This document shows positions 592 to 41,927 of a stretch of 47,711 nucleotides of DNA, in pieces. Numbering within the stretch: the stretch's first letter is position 1; the number at the start of each line of letters is the position of its first letter. The DNA comes from Desulfobacterales bacterium (lineage in GTDB: Bacteria; Desulfobacterota; Desulfobulbia; Desulfobulbales; BM004), in the NCBI GenBank assembly GCA_021647905.1, contig JAKITW010000012.1:1-47711 (forward strand), in the 5' to 3' direction. The position numbers were made by a program, and so were the translations under genes. Below the pieces are notes generated by a model that was not told where the DNA came from, made no database searches, and saw only the letters and a list, made by a program, of their open reading frames with translations.

Positions 592-2253
592 TCAGATGCC
601 ATACCCTAACCCCGCCAAGTTCTGCTTGATCTGTTCTTCCAGCTTGTCACTATCGGCAAACTGTTCCTTGAGCTGGGCTGTCAATCGGGCCATCTTTTCG
701 GCAAAAGGTTCGCCGTCGTCCTCTTCCTCCGGTGCTCCCACATATCGACCAGGAGTGAGCACATAATCGTGTTGTTTTATTTCGTCTATATTTACAGACT
801 TCCATAGCCCGGCCAGATCAGCATATCCTTCGCCTCTTTGCCAGTTATGATAAGTAATGGCGAATTCCTTGATCTCATCAGCGGTAAAGTCACGCAAAAC
901 CCGGTCTTTCATATATCCCATGCTGCGGACATCCATGAAAAGGACTTCACTGGTCCGGTCGCGGAGACCATTTCTCTTTTTTTTGTTTCTGGTTAGAAAC
1001 CAGATGCAGGCTGGAATCTGGGTATTGGTGAAAAGCTGACCGGGCAGGGCCACCATGCACTCCACCAGGTCATTTTCAATCAGGGCCTTTCGTATCTGTC
1101 CTTCATTGTTGGTATTGGAACTCATGGAACCATTGGCCAGCAGCAGGGCCATGGAACCGTTGGGTGCCAGGTGGTAGAGCATGTGCTGCAGCCAGGCAAA
1201 GTTGGCATTGTTGGTCGGCGGTTTGCCATATTGCCAGCGCGGGTCGTCGTCGCTGACCCCGGTATCCCATTCCTTCATATTAAAGGGAGGATTGGCCATG
1301 ATGAAGTTGGCCCTGAGATCCGGGTGCTGGTCATTGGTAAAAGTGTTGGCCGGTTCCTTGCCGAAGTTGAACTCGATACCGCGAATCACCATGTTCATGG
1401 CAGCGAGCTGCCAGGTGGTGTGGTTGTATTCCTGGCCGTAGATGGAGACATCGCCCAGCCTGCCGCCATGGCCCTTGATGAATTTTTCGCTCTGCACAAA
1501 AAAGCCGCCCGAGCCCATGGCCGGATCGTATACCCTGCCCTTGAAAGGCTGGAGCATCTCGACAATCAAGGTGACGATCGACTTGGGCGTATAGAACTGG
1601 CCGCCTTTCTTGCCTTCAGCCAGGGCGAACTGGCCAAGAAAATATTCATACACATGGCCGAGGATGTCCTTGGCATGCAGTGATTTATGTTCAAAGGGGA
1701 TAGTGGCGATCTGATCGATCAACTCGCCGAGCTTGGCCTGGTCGATCTGCAAACGGCCATACTGTTTGTTGAGGATCCCTTTGAGTTTGGGATTGTCCTT
1801 TTCAATGGCATCCAAGGCGTCGTCGATCAACCGACCCACACTGCGAAAAATGTATGTGCGTTTTTTGCCGTTGGTAATCTCGATCTCAGTTCCCGGCGCC
1901 AACTTCGAATTATCCTGCAGGGTCTGCCAGCGGGCCAGTTCAGGCACCCAGAAGACATTCTTCTCGGTGTAGTAGTCGCGAATTTCCAGTTCATCGTTGA
2001 TCTCGTCCTGGTATTCCTCCGGCGAGTCGTAGTCGTCCGGATCGAGAAAATATTCATGGCCCGGGTCCTCGAACTGCTCGAACAACTCCTGCCGGCGCAT
2101 CTCAAAGGCATCTGACACATACTTGATAAACAACAGGCCCAACACCGCATGCTTGTATTGGGCCGCATCCAGGGTGGAGCGCAGTTTGTCCGCCGCGGTC
2201 CACAACTTCTTTTCAAGATCGTTTAGAAATTTCTGCTCTTCTTGCTGTGTCAT
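592..2253 (-). CDS. hsdM: Type I restriction-modification DNA adenine methyltransferase HsdM
   Basis: HsdM methylates adenine N6 in the hemimethylated target and forms the M2S core of the type I enzyme. From the ATG at 2253 the protein is 553 residues, the normal family length. Residues 1-50 resemble the HsdM N-terminal helical domain (KKLWTAADKLRSTLDAAQYK). The SAM-binding motif I DPAMGSGGF is at about 243-251 and the catalytic NPPF (motif IV) at about 321-324; GGQFYTP precedes motif I as usual. The frame stays open upstream to 2514 and could be read from a TTG at 2493, giving 633 residues, but that extra part is a DUF1016 remnant, so I chose the ATG, which has AAGG about 10 nt upstream. hsdS follows 4 nt downstream. 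No hsdR is seen in the window; it may lie to the left. Confidence 0.93.
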   Translation of the reverse strand: MTQQEEQKFLNDLEKKLWTAADKLRSTLDAAQYKHAVLGLLFIKYVSDAFEMRRQELFEQFEDPGHEYFLDPDDYDSPEEYQDEINDELEIRDYYTEKNVFWVPELARWQTLQDNSKLAPGTEIEITNGKKRTYIFRSVGRLIDDALDAIEKDNPKLKGILNKQYGRLQIDQAKLGELIDQIATIPFEHKSLHAKDILGHVYEYFLGQFALAEGKKGGQFYTPKSIVTLIVEMLQPFKGRVYDPAMGSGGFFVQSEKFIKGHGGRLGDVSIYGQEYNHTTWQLAAMNMVIRGIEFNFGKEPANTFTNDQHPDLRANFIMANPPFNMKEWDTGVSDDDPRWQYGKPPTNNANFAWLQHMLYHLAPNGSMALLLANGSMSSNTNNEGQIRKALIENDLVECMVALPGQLFTNTQIPACIWFLTRNKKKRNGLRDRTSEVLFMDVRSMGYMKDRVLRDFTADEIKEFAITYHNWQRGEGYADLAGLWKSVNIDEIKQHDYVLTPGRYVGAPEEEDDGEPFAEKMARLTAQLKEQFADSDKLEEQIKQNLAGLGYGI

Positions 2254-2514
2254 TAATTTCAACCTTACTAAATGAAAACCGGATTTCCGCGTCATCCGGA
2301 TATAGAACTCTCGTTCCTGCGGGTCTTTGCAGCGCTGAAGGATGGTTAGGTTGTGGGTCCAGCCGATTTGCGCAACCAGTGGTTGCACTTTTGGCAGGTC
2401 GCAATACGCGAGGTATAATTCCCGCATGTAGAAGACATTCCTGCGGGAATAACCGCTCACGCCGGGAAATTCGCGGCGAAGGTCCGCTGCCAATTGCCTT
2501 ATCTTTCTTGACCG
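2254..2514 (-). pseudogene. Remnant of a DUF1016 (YhcG-like) gene, in frame with hsdM
   Basis: The stretch upstream of the hsdM ATG is open from a TGA at 2514 and encodes LAADLRREFPGVSGYSRRN, then FYMRELYLAY and REFYIRMTRKSGF. These match the N-terminal domain of DUF1016 proteins (PDDEXK nuclease, YhcG type), which often sit inside type I restriction operons. Only about 75 residues of that domain remain: the usual start and the whole C-terminal nuclease domain are missing. The remnant runs straight into MTQQEEQ, the natural N-terminus of HsdM. A deletion that removed most of a DUF1016 gene and joined the frames explains this best. Translation from TTG 2493 (AAGG 4 nt upstream) cannot be excluded and would make a fusion protein. 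Confidence 0.7.
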
Positions 2515-2541
2515 TCACGCCGCCTTTACGAAAAAAAGCCT

Positions 2542-2970
2542 CTATTCGAGTTTTGTTTTGTATGGATCAGCACCTGCTTTCGGCATTCCATTCCCTTGTT
2601 TTCTTTTCTTCCTCACCGTTCCATCAAATCCCGGGCAACCGGTGTTTTCCGCGTGTTCCCTTGACAGGGGATAATTCCTGCAATGTTCGGGTTTCATGTC
2701 CTGGATGCGGCAGATATATTTATTTTTTCCAGGCAACTTACGCAGCCAGGGACACCTGGCAACATCATCACCGGTCGTTGGACTGACCCAGATGTCATAT
2801 ACTTGATGGCCTTCACCGATAGATATGACGTCAACCCATGCCAGAATATCAGCGCGATCATTCTCTTCCCAGCGCCGAATATCCTCTTCGGTGGCGCATA
2901 CATCAATCGCTCCCGAGAGATTCAGGCAACAATGGCCGCATTGTTTGCAGTTAAAGTCTGCCAAGGGCAT
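2542..2970 (-). CDS. YkgJ-family cysteine-cluster protein
   Basis: This 142-residue protein has the cysteine pattern of the YkgJ/UPF0153 family, thought to bind zinc or an Fe-S cluster: FNCKQCGHCC near the N-terminus (residues 6-16), then ARCPWLR, YICRIQDMKPEHCRNYP, and a late GCPGF. The exact function of the family is not established. The start ATG at 2970 lies just before the first cysteine cluster, as usual. The C-terminus after GCPGFDG is a lysine-rich tail without recognisable motif. It stands alone between the DUF1016 remnant and a repeat element, on the same strand as its neighbours. Confidence 0.8.
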   Translation of the reverse strand: MPLADFNCKQCGHCCLNLSGAIDVCATEEDIRRWEENDRADILAWVDVISIGEGHQVYDIWVSPTTGDDVARCPWLRKLPGKNKYICRIQDMKPEHCRNYPLSREHAENTGCPGFDGTVRKKRKQGNGMPKAGADPYKTKLE

Positions 2971-3014
2971 ATTGTTTTACCATGTTTAACGAGATATTCT
3001 AACCCGGCGGAGTT

Positions 3015-3110
3015 GGATAAGACCCTTTACGGCCCAGAGATCATCAGAGGGTTGGTTGCCCTTGTCGCAAGATACACGCTTTTTCGTAGATCTTTAGGAC
3101 AAAGGGTCTA
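3015..3110. repeat. Family B palindromic repeat, copy 1 (about 96 bp)
   Basis: The element begins GGATAAGACCCTTTACGG and ends TTTAGGACAAAGGGTCTA. The same ends, with a different middle, recur twice in tandem at 12262-12467. The termini are inverted (AAGACCCT versus AGGGTCT), so the element can fold on itself. The upstream flank CCCGGCGGAG resembles the CCCGGCGATG before copy 3, suggesting the unit may extend a little to the left. Its last bases provide the stop codon of the gene at 3108-3419. Confidence 0.8.
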
Positions 3111-3419
3111 ATGAATTGTCCCCTCACTCATATCCCATACCAATCCCTGCCAGCCGTCGATAAGGCCCTCGTCCCCGCATTCAGGGCAGAACCAGTGAAT
3201 CCGGTCGTCCATCTCAAGCTGGATTTTCAATCTGCCCTTGCACGGTTTTCTTTTCGGCCGCCGCCAGCATTTCGGCGCCTCTCCCACCGACAGACCGCGG
3301 TCGCGTGACGTTATCCAGGTTATGATCTCCGCCAGCTTTTTCACCTTCAACCTCAGCTGCGGGAGAGCCGGGCCGTCCTGCTGTTCGTTCAACCAGTGTC
3401 TTATGTCAATCACCCACAT
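3108..3419 (-). CDS. Conserved small protein with a zinc-ribbon-like C-terminus
   Basis: The protein has 103 residues from the ATG at 3419 (MWVIDIRHWL). The N-terminal half is helical; the C-terminal half carries two cysteine pairs, CWRRPKRKPC and FCPECGDEG, followed by LIDGWQGLVWDMSEG. I recognise this as a conserved hypothetical family of about 100 residues that ends near the W-D motif; no function is known to me. The stop codon TAG is formed by the end of the family B repeat, and the last residues (TIH) are probably not ancestral. An upstream in-frame ATG would add seven residues; the chosen start fits family N-termini better. Confidence 0.7.
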   Translation of the reverse strand: MWVIDIRHWLNEQQDGPALPQLRLKVKKLAEIITWITSRDRGLSVGEAPKCWRRPKRKPCKGRLKIQLEMDDRIHWFCPECGDEGLIDGWQGLVWDMSEGTIH

Positions 3420-3672
3420 ACGCAATCCCCAACCCAAAACCAGTACCTGTTTCGCTCAGCCGATATCTCTGCTGGAGTAAATTATCCAACTACCTTCCAA
3501 GATAGCGCTCTGGTAGCGCTCTGGGGTCTGGCTTGACTTGTTGACATTTGATGCTTCGGACCCCGGCACGGAACGTATTTTGGCGCCGTGCATATTCTTT
3601 ACGGTTCCTTCAAGTATTTCGTGATATGATTATCATGTTAGTACCACGTTTATTGCCATATTAATGTGGTCA

Positions 3673-4731
3673 TTACCTTAATTCCCCGGCAATTCGACGC
3701 CAGCGGGCGTCCCGGCCACGTCCCAAAATCTCCAGCTTGCCTTGCTTGCGCCAACTGTTCATCACCCTGCGGATCATTTCGCGACTTACATTAGGACAGA
3801 GCTGTTCAATCTCGGCGATTCCAAACGGCCTTGTCATGCTGCGCAGGGCATACTCCACAATCTCGGTCTTGGCGCCACGCGGACTTTTGGTCCGGCCCAC
3901 TCTTTCCTCAAACTCCTTATAGACCACCTTAAGAATCGACAACAGATAATTCACGTAGGGCCAGGGATCATGGCGGCCTTCGCGCCAGTGGATGGAACTT
4001 TGCGCCAGGGTTTCATAGTACCTCTCCTTATTCTGCTCGATGATCCGTTCGATGCTGATAAAACGACCCGCCTCGAAGCCGAGATGATAGCACTGCAACA
4101 GCAGGAGCAGCCTGGAAACCCGGCCGTTGCCGTCCCGGAAAGGATGAATGCAGAGAAAATCGAGATTAAAGGCAGCCATGGCCACCAGCGGATGCACCCA
4201 GCGTTCCTCCAAGCACCGGTCCCAAAGATCGAGCAACTCGCGCATGGCGGCCGGCGTGTCCGCCGCCGCGACCGTCTTGAAGCGGACTCTTGATCTGCCG
4301 TCGGCAAACCTCTCAATGATATCGCTTTCCTTTTCCTTATATTTGCCGGCATCCCAGATATCGCCGCGGGTCAACCGGTGCAGTTCGCATATGGTCTCCT
4401 CGGAAAGAGGCAGGGAGTCACCCTGTTCGTGAATGAGATTCAGGGCGTTGCGGTATCCCCGGACTTCCTCTTCGTCCCGGTCCTGGAGCGGAGCCTGACC
4501 GAGAACAATCGATTGAACCCGGGCCTGTTCAACCTGAACGCCCTCAATCCGGTTGGAGGAAACCGCGCTTTCGATCAAGGCGTGTTCGCGCAACGCTTTC
4601 AGTTTCTGTGGGGCCTGACGGAAAAAAAGCTCCTGCCGGCCCCGGGCTTCCGACAGATCACCGATGTACCATGCGCTAGCCGCGGGTATGGTCCGTGGTT
4701 TTGCAGCGAATTTTCTAAGGGTCATCATCAT
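3673..4731 (-). CDS. Fic-domain protein (likely AMP-transferase) with C-terminal winged helix
   Basis: Fic enzymes usually transfer AMP from ATP to a protein hydroxyl group. This 352-residue protein has the catalytic motif HPFRDGNGR at about 196-204, with H196 as the expected base, and an N-terminal autoinhibitory motif SNRIEG at about 59-64 (S-x3-E-G), so it looks like a self-inhibited class II Fic protein. The C-terminal about 70 residues (GIAEIEQLCPNVSREMIRR) look like a winged helix, as in the larger Fic family with N-terminal DUF4172-like helices. The ATG at 4731 has GGAG 5 nt upstream. The open frame extends much further upstream to 5136, but there it lies antisense to nothing conserved and in the shadow of the ferredoxin gene, so the long version is rejected. 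No antitoxin gene is adjacent. Confidence 0.9.
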   Translation of the reverse strand: MMMTLRKFAAKPRTIPAASAWYIGDLSEARGRQELFFRQAPQKLKALREHALIESAVSSNRIEGVQVEQARVQSIVLGQAPLQDRDEEEVRGYRNALNLIHEQGDSLPLSEETICELHRLTRGDIWDAGKYKEKESDIIERFADGRSRVRFKTVAAADTPAAMRELLDLWDRCLEERWVHPLVAMAAFNLDFLCIHPFRDGNGRVSRLLLLLQCYHLGFEAGRFISIERIIEQNKERYYETLAQSSIHWREGRHDPWPYVNYLLSILKVVYKEFEERVGRTKSPRGAKTEIVEYALRSMTRPFGIAEIEQLCPNVSREMIRRVMNSWRKQGKLEILGRGRDARWRRIAGELR

Positions 4732-4891
4732 AGAAACTCCGTTATTGACTACGTTGACAAACGAACGGAAAACCGGGACAGAACTTTTTTCTCTGGCCGA
4801 CGACGGAAAATTGGTCGGGCGTCGGTACTCTTGAATATTGAGGAAAAACCCAACAAATAAAATTAGGTGACTACCCTTGCCCCTCTCGCCA

Positions 4892-5692
4892 TTACCGCAA
4901 GGCAATTGCCCCGTGCGGGCAGTGGTTGCGGCAGAGGCCGCAGCCGTAGCATTTATCCGGATCGACCACGGCGACCGTGTTGACGCCTTCTGTACGGCCG
5001 GCAATGGCAACGAACCGGCAGCTCTCGGCACAGAGGCCGCAGCCGTCGCAAAGAGTTGGGTCCACCCGGGCCTTGTATTCGCCCGGGGCCAGGGTCTCAA
5101 CCTGCATCGCGATGGTGCGCAGGCCCAGGCATGCATGGCTGGTGCAGTTGCAGATCGCCCCGATAAAGGGGGTGATCATGGTCCAGATGGTGTGTATCGC
5201 CCCCTCTTCCTCCAGGGCCTCCATCTGGGCCATGGCCTTGGCCGGACTCACCGTTTCGAAGCCCTTGTCCAACGCCTTGCCGAAATAGCTCATGTCCAGA
5301 TCCCGGTGCCAGGTCTCCGGCGAATAGCTCACCGAATAGCAGCAACGTTTTTCCGTCCGGTCAACGGCCCAGCGGCAGGCGCAGGGCATCCGCACCACGG
5401 TGGCGGCCTGGCCGACGATGGCCTTGACATCCTCCAGGGGCACCACCTGGCCGAAATGCTCCTCCCGGGCCTTTTCCTCCATGGCCCGGACCAGGCGGGC
5501 CGGCAGTTTTTTTTTCTTGCGATAAATGGTCTCCAGCCGGCCGAGGCTGACAATTCCCTCGCCGATGGTCGACTGGAGAAAGCTTGAGATATATTGGCGG
5601 CGCCTGAGATCGGCAATCAGGTCGCGGGCGTAATTCCTGGCGTTCTTGTACCAGATCGCCCCGTCGCCGTGTTTTGTACAGAATTCACACAT
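4892..5692 (-). CDS. 4Fe-4S ferredoxin-domain protein
   Basis: This 266-residue protein ends in two classical 4Fe-4S motifs, CDGCGLCAESC and CYGCGLCRNHC followed by PHGAIALR, in the last 55 residues. The N-terminal part has other conserved cysteines: MCEFC at the start, MPCACRW, KRCCYS, and CNCTSHACLG. It has no membrane segment or signal peptide, so it is presumably cytoplasmic. I recognise similar proteins from sulfate reducers, where they are annotated only as 4Fe-4S binding proteins; the electron partners are unknown. The start MCEFCTKHG is well placed. It stands alone here, so context gives no further hint. Confidence 0.85.
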   Translation of the reverse strand: MCEFCTKHGDGAIWYKNARNYARDLIADLRRRQYISSFLQSTIGEGIVSLGRLETIYRKKKKLPARLVRAMEEKAREEHFGQVVPLEDVKAIVGQAATVVRMPCACRWAVDRTEKRCCYSVSYSPETWHRDLDMSYFGKALDKGFETVSPAKAMAQMEALEEEGAIHTIWTMITPFIGAICNCTSHACLGLRTIAMQVETLAPGEYKARVDPTLCDGCGLCAESCRFVAIAGRTEGVNTVAVVDPDKCYGCGLCRNHCPHGAIALR

Positions 5693-6023
5693 GTTTTTTC
5701 CTGATTCTTTTGCTGTTTTTGCGGCACCGTTCCAATTCCGGAGAGATTACGAGGTCAGGCGGAAGCCCTGCTCCAGCATCTCCAGCATGGTCAGGGTGAT
5801 GATCCTGAACTCGGTGCAGCCAACGGGTATAAACCAGGAGCCGGCAAGGCTGGACAGATAGGTCCGCCGCTCCAGGGCCGTATGTCGAGCCGGGAAGGGG
5901 GCTGGGGGAGATTCCTCAGTCAGAATTTGCCGGCACCATGGCGTAGTTACAGGTATTCGATGCGGTTGGATTCAGTCATTCCCCGGCCCTTTTTCGTCAT
6001 CCCACAAATCTCGATACCCGGTA
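5693..6023. other. Intergenic stretch, possibly with degraded gene remnants
   Basis: No intact gene is visible in these 331 bp. On the minus strand, a frame bounded by TGA at about 5974 and TAA at about 5748 ends with a plausible protein-like tail (LAGSWFIPVGCTEF, then LTMLEMLEQGFRL) but has no start codon. A tiny ORF just above it reads MTESNRIEYL and stops; it resembles the first residues of AlbA_2-domain regulators. Both could be scraps of lost genes; neither is certain. Confidence 0.3.
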
Positions 6024-7670
6024 TCAGGTCGGCAGTCCCTTTTGCCGGACAGCCTTCCAGAGGTTGCGCCGCCTTTTGTGCTCCGTCTTCCAGTTGGACA
6101 GAATGCGGTTGAAAAAATCCCTGTCAATATCATGAACCGCGGCCAGCCACAGGGCGTGGACATCATAATTGGATTTTTCAGCCGATTCCGGAGCAGGGAT
6201 GAATTTATCAATGTCATGTTGCCAGGCGCTAAGAATATCGTCCAGTAATTCTTCCGCCTTGAATTTTCTAAGCCAGGCATGGCGGATTTTCTTGTTTTTG
6301 CCACCGCCATAAACCAGGCTGTTGACTGCCTGGCGCAGATTTGCATAACGGCCGGCAGCACCGGCTATTTGCAAAATATCGTCTGTCAGCAGGCAATAGC
6401 TTTTCACCTGGTAATTATCCGCTAATATTTCCCTAGGCTTCAGGCTGCTGCCAAGGCTGTGCAACCAGTTCCCGACCCGGTCGTGGAAATATTCGCGGTT
6501 TTCTTGGTTTATACCGGTTTTCAGCAAAAAGAAGAGCCAGTCAGGGGTGGTATTGCTCAGGCGGCCGAAACCGAGGCCCAGGGTAACGGTTACCGTGTAC
6601 TCCATCCACTGTCGGCACAGTCCCCGGATCACCTGCTCAGCGGGAGAGGCGGAAAAATCACGGACCAGAGCGGCGATCCGGTCCCAGGCATGCGGATCAT
6701 GGTAAACGGCCAGTTGAAACGCCAGGGCGGCCTTCAGAACATGCTTTTCTTCTTTCCCGGCAATATCCAGCCAATGATCGAATACTGAGCAGAGTTCCGT
6801 ATCTGCATTACCGTATCCGTAACAAAGCCTGTTGATGAGAAGAACTTTTTCCGGGTCCCAACTTTTCTGCCCTCTCCTGCCGAGATAACTCTTGAAAACT
6901 TGTTTGATGATTTCCTCAGCCCCGGCCCGGTCTCCTTTCATGAGCCGGTCTTCGATAACCGGCAGACCATAATGCCAGTCCCGGGCAAGAAGCTTCCCGC
7001 AATCCTTGAGATAAGTATCCTGGTTGAAACACTTTGCCAGGGCATGATACACGTGATGCCAGCCGGACCATGGCGAGGCCAATCGTTCTTGCCAGAAAGA
7101 ACGGCCGCGATTTTCAGTTATGAATTCATAGATCTCCTGCTTTTGCTCCGAAGAAAAGTCATCCAGGAAATCGATAAAGGCCTTTGTATCCAGCAGGCAG
7201 CGCCATCCCGCCTCAAGGTCGGCCAACCTGTCGGCAAAAGAAGCGGCTGAATCGGCGTGCAGCTTTTCCCAGGTCAGCAGGCAGCGGGTGAATACAGGCC
7301 CCACATAGATCTCTTCATGGTCAAAATCACACATCCATTCCGGGTAACTCTTGATATTGTCTTCTATTTCATCTATCGCCCCCGCGAAAATCTCCAGGTC
7401 TTCCTCGCCGGTGTTGTGGATTGTATCAAGCAACGGCAGCATTTTTTCCGCAACCTCATCAAGGTCATCGGCCAGGGAGCCGCAATCGAAACAAGGCGGT
7501 TCCCAATGGACATCCTGATAAGCATAGCGGCCTTCCTCGTCACCAACTTCAATGACCAGGTTATGCCATTGATTCCAGAGCTGATGCCAGATTTCCAGAT
7601 ACTTGGCGGTTGACGGCCGTCCCTCTTTTTTCTTCTTTTTCTTGTCGCCTTTTTTAAGGTAACCGTTCAC
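6024..7670 (-). CDS. Uncharacterised protein, 3' part of a gene split by a MITE
   Basis: The open frame gives 548 residues when started at the GTG at 7670, but that GTG and the next codons (MNGY) belong to the terminal repeat of the inserted 152-bp element, and no ribosome-binding site precedes it. From LKKGDKKKKKKEG onward the sequence is native. Removing the element and one 8-bp target duplication joins this frame exactly to the small ORF 7807-7977, giving a 597-residue protein. The native part is mostly helical and acidic, tryptophan-rich (WHQLWNQWHNL), with PPCFDCGSLADDLDEVAE near residue 60, and a basic C-terminus (KTEHKRRRNLWKAVRQKG). It may be a helical-repeat protein. I do not recognise the family. 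Expression of this fragment is doubtful. Confidence 0.6.
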   Translation of the reverse strand: MNGYLKKGDKKKKKKEGRPSTAKYLEIWHQLWNQWHNLVIEVGDEEGRYAYQDVHWEPPCFDCGSLADDLDEVAEKMLPLLDTIHNTGEEDLEIFAGAIDEIEDNIKSYPEWMCDFDHEEIYVGPVFTRCLLTWEKLHADSAASFADRLADLEAGWRCLLDTKAFIDFLDDFSSEQKQEIYEFITENRGRSFWQERLASPWSGWHHVYHALAKCFNQDTYLKDCGKLLARDWHYGLPVIEDRLMKGDRAGAEEIIKQVFKSYLGRRGQKSWDPEKVLLINRLCYGYGNADTELCSVFDHWLDIAGKEEKHVLKAALAFQLAVYHDPHAWDRIAALVRDFSASPAEQVIRGLCRQWMEYTVTVTLGLGFGRLSNTTPDWLFFLLKTGINQENREYFHDRVGNWLHSLGSSLKPREILADNYQVKSYCLLTDDILQIAGAAGRYANLRQAVNSLVYGGGKNKKIRHAWLRKFKAEELLDDILSAWQHDIDKFIPAPESAEKSNYDVHALWLAAVHDIDRDFFNRILSNWKTEHKRRRNLWKAVRQKGLPT

Positions 7671-7810
7671 CGGGGGTACGGATTTATGGTAATCTCATGC
7701 CCGTAAGCGTTCACCAGTGGCTTAGATTCGTTCATTTGGGACTGCGAAGCATACTGGTGCTATTCGAGCAGGCCAAAATGGGCGAAGATGAGGTGCTGGT
7801 GAACGCTTAC
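7659..7810. mobile_element. 152-bp MITE (family A, IS66-like ends), copy 1, with 8-bp target duplication
   Basis: The element runs from GTAACCGTTCACCGGGGG to GGTGAACGCTTAC. Its ends are imperfect inverted repeats (GTAACCGTTCACC versus GTAAGCGTTCACC, 12 of 13). It is flanked on both sides by TTTTTAAG (7651-7658 and 7811-7818), a perfect 8-bp duplication. A second 152-bp copy, differing at only a few positions, lies at 12012-12163. It encodes no transposase. Ends starting GTAA and 8-bp duplications are features of the IS66 family, so it was probably moved by an IS66-type transposase elsewhere in the genome. Confidence 0.93.
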
Positions 7811-7977
7811 TTTTTAAGTATGTTGCGCACGGTCGTTGCAATATCGGCTTGCAGGCCGCCCAAGACATCTTGCCGCTGAGATTCGGACAGAGTTGATATA
7901 CAGGCCGAAAGCAGGCGGGCGGTCTGCTCGTCAGTCAGGAAATTCATTATTTTCTTGCCAATTTCTTGCTTGCTCAT
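7807..7977 (-). CDS. 5' fragment (56 residues) of the MITE-split gene
   Basis: The ORF starts at ATG 7977 (MSKQEIGKKIMNFLTDEQ) with AGGGA about 7 nt upstream and ends NILKK followed by TAA. The stop codon is the TAA inside the GTAAGCG terminus of the inserted element. Without the element the frame continues into the 6024-7670 ORF at the shared KKGDKKKK region. The fragment is helical and looks like the natural N-terminus of the longer protein. It may still be translated, but as a truncated product. It lies downstream of tRNA-Leu and its likely terminator. Confidence 0.6.
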   Translation of the reverse strand: MSKQEIGKKIMNFLTDEQTARLLSACISTLSESQRQDVLGGLQADIATTVRNILKK

Positions 7978-7989
7978 ATCAATCCCTGC

Positions 7990-8020
7990 GTAAACATTCA
8001 GTAAACCCCCTCCTATCGGG
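7990..8020. repeat. Family D repeat fragment
   Basis: The 31 bp starting GTAAACATTCAGTAAAC and ending CTATCGGG match the terminal part of the 127-bp family D element seen at 20892-21018 and 47585-47711. The remaining about 95 bp of the element are absent here. The piece can fold as AAACCC/GGGTTT. Confidence 0.65.
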
Positions 8021-8043
8021 TTTTTGATTGCTGACGGTCCAGA

Positions 8044-8068
8044 CAAAAAAAGGACCGTAACCCTTTTC
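8044..8068 (-). terminator. Possible terminator downstream of tRNA-Leu
   Basis: Read on the minus strand, AAAAGG is followed by an 8-nt loop, CCTTTT and further Ts (seven in all), 26 nt after the tRNA 3' end. An overlapping alternative hairpin ACGGTCC/GGACCGT (8034-8058) places the T run in the loop. The stem is short, so the call is tentative. Confidence 0.4.
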
Positions 8069-8093
8069 AGGATTACAGCCCCTTTTATGAAAA

Positions 8094-8179
8094 TGGTGCC
8101 GAAGGCCGGACTCGAACCGGCACGGGCGTGGCCCACTACCCCCTCAAGATAGCGTGTCTACCAGTTCCACCACTTCGGC
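8094..8179 (-). tRNA. tRNA-Leu (anticodon GAG)
   Basis: The 86-nt gene folds into a class II tRNA. Acceptor GCCGAAG pairs with CTTCGGC, followed by A and an encoded CCA. The anticodon stem-loop is CTATC-TTGAGGG-GGTAG with GAG in the loop. A long variable arm precedes the T arm (GGTTCGAGTCC). It lies 13 bp beyond secG on the same strand, so it is probably co-transcribed with gap-pgk-tpiA-secG and released by processing. The secG-tRNA-Leu arrangement is common in proteobacteria. Confidence 0.97.
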
Positions 8180-12011: not shown

Positions 12012-12163
12012 GTAACCGTTCACCGGGGGTACGGATTTACGGTAAACTCATGCCCGTAAGCGTTTACCAGTGGCTTAGATTCGTTCATTCGGGACTGCGA
12101 AGCATACTGGTGCTATTCGAGCAGGCCAGAATGGGCGAAGATGAGGTGCTGGTGAACGCTTAC
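12012..12163. mobile_element. 152-bp MITE (family A), copy 2, with 8-bp target duplication
   Basis: This copy is nearly identical to 7659-7810 and has the same ends (GTAACCGTTCACCGGGGG and GGTGAACGCTTAC). It is flanked by perfect ATATTAAC duplications at 12004-12011 and 12164-12171. It is inserted between the divergent gap and metK genes, about 80 bp upstream of the gap start codon. Two copies with different intact duplications show that this element has moved as a unit, and recently. Confidence 0.95.
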
Positions 12164-41829: not shown

Positions 41830-41927
41830 GGAAGTGGAAAGGGCACTGGTGGCCCTCCCGGACTTCAAATCCGGTGCACCGGGTTAACAGCCCGGTGGGT
41901 GGGTTCGATTCCCATGCACTTCCGCCA
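41830..41927 (+). tRNA. selC: Selenocysteine tRNA (anticodon TCA)
   Basis: The 98-nt gene has an acceptor GGAAGTG/CACTTCC with encoded GCCA, an anticodon arm CCGGA-CTTCAAA-TCCGG with TCA, an extended D arm (AGGGC-ACTGGTG-GCCCT) and a long variable arm CACCGGG/CCCGGTG. These are the features of bacterial tRNA-SeC, so the organism makes selenoproteins. selA, selB and selD are not in the window. Confidence 0.97.

Follow-up and report, generated by a model that had tools for sequence, protein, structure and literature searches.

The locus and its features

The window, meaning the whole stretch of DNA analysed here, covers 47,711 nucleotides of contig JAKITW010000012.1 from a Desulfobacterales bacterium (assembly GCA_021647905.1). 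Between positions 6024 and 7977, two open reading frames on the minus strand are set apart by a short repeat-bounded element, a MITE, of which the window contains a second copy. The features discussed below are:

7807-7977, minus strand: 5' fragment of the broken gene, a 56-aa ORF that takes its TAA stop from the element
6024-7670, minus strand: 3' fragment of the broken gene, a 548-aa ORF whose GTG lies within the element, with 6024-7658 belonging to the gene itself
7659-7810, plus strand: non-autonomous MITE of 152 bp with IS66-like ends, with about 40 copies in the genome and 4 differences from the family consensus
7651-7658: target-site duplication TTTTTAAG, copy 1
7811-7818: target-site duplication TTTTTAAG, copy 2
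7659-7671, plus strand: outer left terminal repeat GTAACCGTTCACC
7703-7715, plus strand: inner terminal-repeat copy GTAAGCGTTCACC
7798-7810, minus strand: right terminal repeat GTAAGCGTTCACC
7703-7810: hairpin within the element, 108 nt, covarying across the order
12012-12163, plus strand: second MITE copy, intergenic, with an exact duplication ATATTAAC

The second copy is flanked by a GAPDH-like gene and a SAM synthetase gene. The region 592-8179, adjoining the 3' end of a tRNA-Leu gene (8094-8179, minus strand), encodes an HsdM-like N-6 methylase and a Fic-domain protein in addition to the broken accessory gene. In the ORF at 592-2493, a DUF1016 N-terminal part is fused to the HsdM N-6 methylase. 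The tRNA-Leu 3' end was considered as an island boundary and rejected, as the window holds no repeat of the tRNA end. A selenocysteine tRNA gene is located at 41830-41927.

Reconstruction of the interrupted gene

The first-pass annotation of this DNA had proposed that a 152-bp element, lying between perfect 8-bp TTTTTAAG duplications, cuts a single gene in two. The boundaries at 7659-7810 proved exact to the base. Scripted removal of the element together with one duplication (7659-7818) leaves 1794 nt on the minus strand, bounded by ATG 7977 and the stop at 6024, that is, 597 codons and a stop codon, with no internal stop. Also as proposed, the element donates the TAA to the upstream ORF through its right end, and GTG 7670 to the downstream ORF through its left end. 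The inserted 160 nt are no multiple of three, so the insertion adds a stop and also shifts the frame. Of the gene's own residues, 544 are retained in the 3' fragment, in an intact frame.

Apart from the insertion, both frames are intact, which makes a recent event probable. The identical duplications and the uneroded frames agree with its earlier description as recent. That both parts are still open may reflect either little time since the insertion, or a body that is still in use.

Homologues across the joint

Uninterrupted homologues that span the joint were found on Nostoc and Aulosira plasmids, in Deltaproteobacteria MAGs and in other cyanobacteria. The 544-residue part has full-length relatives at 26-30% identity, covering 95-97%. 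The 619-aa proteins on plasmids of Aulosira laxa and Nostoc sp. UHCC 0870 (WP_237997004.1, BAZ78374.1) share 27-29% identity throughout, at 97% coverage, and have a similar length and domain order, but their gene is uninterrupted, whereas ours is split by the MITE. In six of the seven aligned homologues, the N-terminal 50-odd residues resemble the 56-residue small ORF, in frame and with the order of the parts preserved; none of 500 shuffles reached the score.

Within the same phylum, four further genomes carry homologues of the large part; one phylum match (L035) encodes a protein 100% identical to that of a Deltaproteobacteria record (L114), which places the window in the phylum of this MAG. 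Two weak phylum matches (G427 and G570) were treated as chance. Further named homologues came from a contig profile search, in which an alignment query worked and a single-protein query found nothing. They belong to Deltaproteobacteria MAGs, Nostoc linckia, Calothrix, Tolypothrix, Leptolyngbyaceae and Oculatellaceae, and also to Verrucomicrobiales, KSB1 and Bacterium BMS3Abin06 (truncated or partial, yet spanning the joint). Most of them align from residue 3-6 of the query, and thus include the N-terminal segment.

Homologues starting at the large ORF had been named beforehand as evidence against a single gene. A single one does so (L037, 1486-3321), having no N-terminal segment in any frame just upstream, against the six aligned homologues that carry both parts. 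The L037 homologue begins close behind another gene. Since it starts without the N-terminal segment, the large part can occur naturally by itself, as it would also have done if the MITE had landed in the gap between two originally separate genes. Such an origin is nonetheless highly unlikely, given that the six aligned homologues and the further named loci hold both parts in a single frame, and that the target duplication lies inside this frame. Draft contigs of this genome commonly terminate in the MITE repeat (e.g., C6, C11, C31 and C73), as they might if unrelated loci had been fused through a high-copy repeat during assembly. We consider an artefact of this kind extremely improbable here, because homology places both flanks in one gene, and because the flanks have the 8-bp duplication in common and give back an exact reading frame. 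At the level of sequence, the joined frame and its homologues demonstrate that the two parts were formerly one continuous gene.

A third plasmid homologue, from Nostoc sp. ATCC 53789, is itself interrupted. It lies on pNsp_b (L034, 5001-7855), with a different transposase gene splitting it, which brings the breaks in this gene to at least two. The gene was absent from all 257 other genomes of the order that were searched, and a search of phages and viral contigs found no relatives of its product. Because of this patchy distribution (absent in the order, plasmid-borne elsewhere) and its transposase-broken state in Nostoc sp. ATCC 53789, the gene looks dispensable.

The gene product

The gene had been described as uncharacterised, and this description holds, with no Pfam, NCBIfam or PADLOC family matching the window protein. 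Searches of its relatives against Pfam returned weak chance matches only, and a PDB sequence search with the gene product gave nothing convincing. A structural model of the 544-residue part is nearly all helical (mean pLDDT 77, pTM 0.56), with residues 1-13 of this part unstructured and a pLDDT of ~35 in the first block. In the model, the insertion sits in a predicted disordered linker, rich in lysine, that connects the small N-terminal segment with the alpha-helical body. The best structural matches are helical-repeat subunits (a middling Z of 8.6; best Foldseek E 8e-3, which is weak). The Foldseek and VIA-align matches were rejected as a specific identity, being generic for helical repeats. 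We read the 544-residue part as a putative alpha-solenoid, in which tandem helical hairpins, as in TPR proteins, would form a superhelix. Its role is probably that of a protein-binding scaffold.

Copies of the element in the genome and the order

The element at 7659-7810 is a MITE: it is short, non-coding and multi-copy, ends in terminal inverted repeats (13 bp, one mismatch between the ends), and is flanked by a duplication of fixed length. A BLAST search with a 168-base query found about 40 distinct copies in the 2.7-Mb draft genome (47 rows, some of them one copy read on the opposite strand). Exact 8-bp duplications at identical ends flank 22 of the 27 complete copies with both flanks; among the remaining five, three show a single mismatch, one has its duplication displaced by a base, and one has no duplication. 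As these 22 copies share ends and exact duplications, the ends at 7659-7810 are not a product of chance. Across the genome, 225 exact matches to the terminal motif GTAASCGTTYACC were counted, and none to its reversed control. The genome also contains a related 154-bp subfamily, and relatives of the MITE were found across the order in 79 of 251 genomes and 30 of 69 genera.

Two pairs of copies, L003/L026 (G000:C2:54109 and G000:C22:5930) and L002/L028, have pairwise identical flanks on separate contigs, with the L026 copy carrying a 23-bp insertion relative to its L003 partner. A duplicated region, a strain mixture or assembly redundancy are alternative explanations for these pairs.

Hairpin and three-repeat architecture

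The MITE is laid out as an outer left repeat, ~31 nt, an inner repeat, and a long hairpin closing in the right repeat. Pairing of the right end with the inner repeat, the third copy of the terminal repeat, gives a hairpin of 39 pairs and 108 nt. The whole element has a folding energy of -56.6 kcal/mol (z -6.5). Across 20 elements, 97.3% of the cells in the hairpin pairing are paired, and two-sided changes occur at 21 pairs, compared with a shuffle mean of 9.3 (reached in 0 of 500 shuffles) and with 5-11 in slid controls. No Rfam family covers the hairpin. Throughout the order (window 7703-7810, L042-L077), the family with three terminal-repeat copies comprises two terminal-repeat subfamilies, GTAACCGTTCACC and GTAACTATTCAGC, with one common core.

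The 108-bp inner part was rejected as the mobile unit, because exact or near-exact duplications flank the outer unit, while 6-8 mismatches are usual at the inner boundary. In the elements examined, the mobile unit usually measures 150-154 bp, with duplications at its outer ends. Since both ends must fit one transposase, it is no surprise that the terminal repeats have changed. For the changes within the inner stem (columns 67-91 with 117-141), two causes suggest themselves: the hairpin is under selection, or one arm is corrected against the other during replication. As a tentative and rather doubtful extension, this would be an order-wide MITE with an unusual three-repeat architecture, whose hairpin is selected, either as structured single-stranded DNA during transposition or, after transcription, as RNA, and whose terminal repeats have evolved together with the hairpin in two or more subfamilies.

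Insertion and fate of the gene

The locus almost certainly arose when a non-autonomous IS66-type MITE inserted itself into the 5' part of a gene encoding a 597-residue alpha-helical repeat protein. Its probable mobiliser, an IS66-type transposase acting in trans, would have put it into the lysine-rich linker, duplicating 8 bp of the target and leaving a 56-residue peptide and an orphan 544-residue body.

The gene has probably been inactivated, mostly or wholly, because translation must restart past a stop and a strong hairpin, at a GTG without a visible ribosome-binding site. L037 weakens the certainty of this inactivation, and leaves the insertion itself unaffected. If the N-terminal segment were dispensable, as its natural absence from L037 might suggest, the split gene could still function, with the body translated alone from the GTG of the element or from a later start. 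The 544-residue frame is intact and the predicted site of insertion is a disordered linker, both of which would favor continued function, and the MITE Chunjie, according to a title cited in PMC10969869, resides in an operon without disturbing it. We nevertheless regard a functional split gene as unlikely. GCAGGG precedes the original ATG 7977, whereas no ribosome-binding-like sequence is visible before GTG 7670; the stop and the hairpin intervene; and the next in-frame ATG lies inside the conserved body.

Overall, this is a well-proven and ordinary gene disruption by a MITE, in which the hairpin is the more interesting part. Besides offering a clean and checkable case, the locus fixes the true N-terminus and the extent of an uncharacterised protein family of cyanobacterial plasmids and several other phyla; here, automated annotation would report two hypothetical ORFs with no relation to each other. 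A MITE family with a covarying hairpin, found in at least 30 genera of the order, could also be a system for studying why some MITEs keep long hairpins.

Comparison with IS66 elements and with Chunjie

Insertion sequences of the IS66 family have ends of the form GTAAGCG (GTAA(G/C)CG) and 8-bp direct repeats (PMC11946415). With GTAASCG ends and 8-bp duplications, the MITE matches IS66-family insertion sequences of the same order, but is unlike them in its length of 152 bp and in having no transposase gene. The IS66-type elements inspected in the order were located by the transposase model PF03050 (L087, L090, L091, L093, L102 and L104). They have ends GTAAGCGCC..., GTAACCGTC... or GTAACTA..., hence terminal motifs GTAAGCG/GTAACCG or GTAACTA, and exact 8-bp duplications. 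Past the first 7 bases, the ends of the MITE diverge from those of the order's IS66 elements, five of which gave no extended-end match; the form to be matched in an IS66 partner is GTAASCGTTCACC. Judged by its end motif GTAA(G/C)CG and its 8-bp duplication, the element would be classed as an IS66-derived MITE.

The host's own draft genome has no match to the IS66 transposase (PF03050). Since a search for a transposase-bearing partner in 20 regions around further terminal motifs returned 154-bp elements only, we infer that an IS66-family transposase moved the MITE in trans.

Geobacter belongs to the deltaproteobacterial group. PMC10969869 describes the MITE Chunjie of Geobacter uraniireducens as 178-235 bp long, with 38 copies, terminal and direct repeats, and one copy in an operon. 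The MITE in our window differs from Chunjie in size. Like Chunjie, it is multi-copy, has terminal and direct repeats, and resides in a host of the deltaproteobacterial group.
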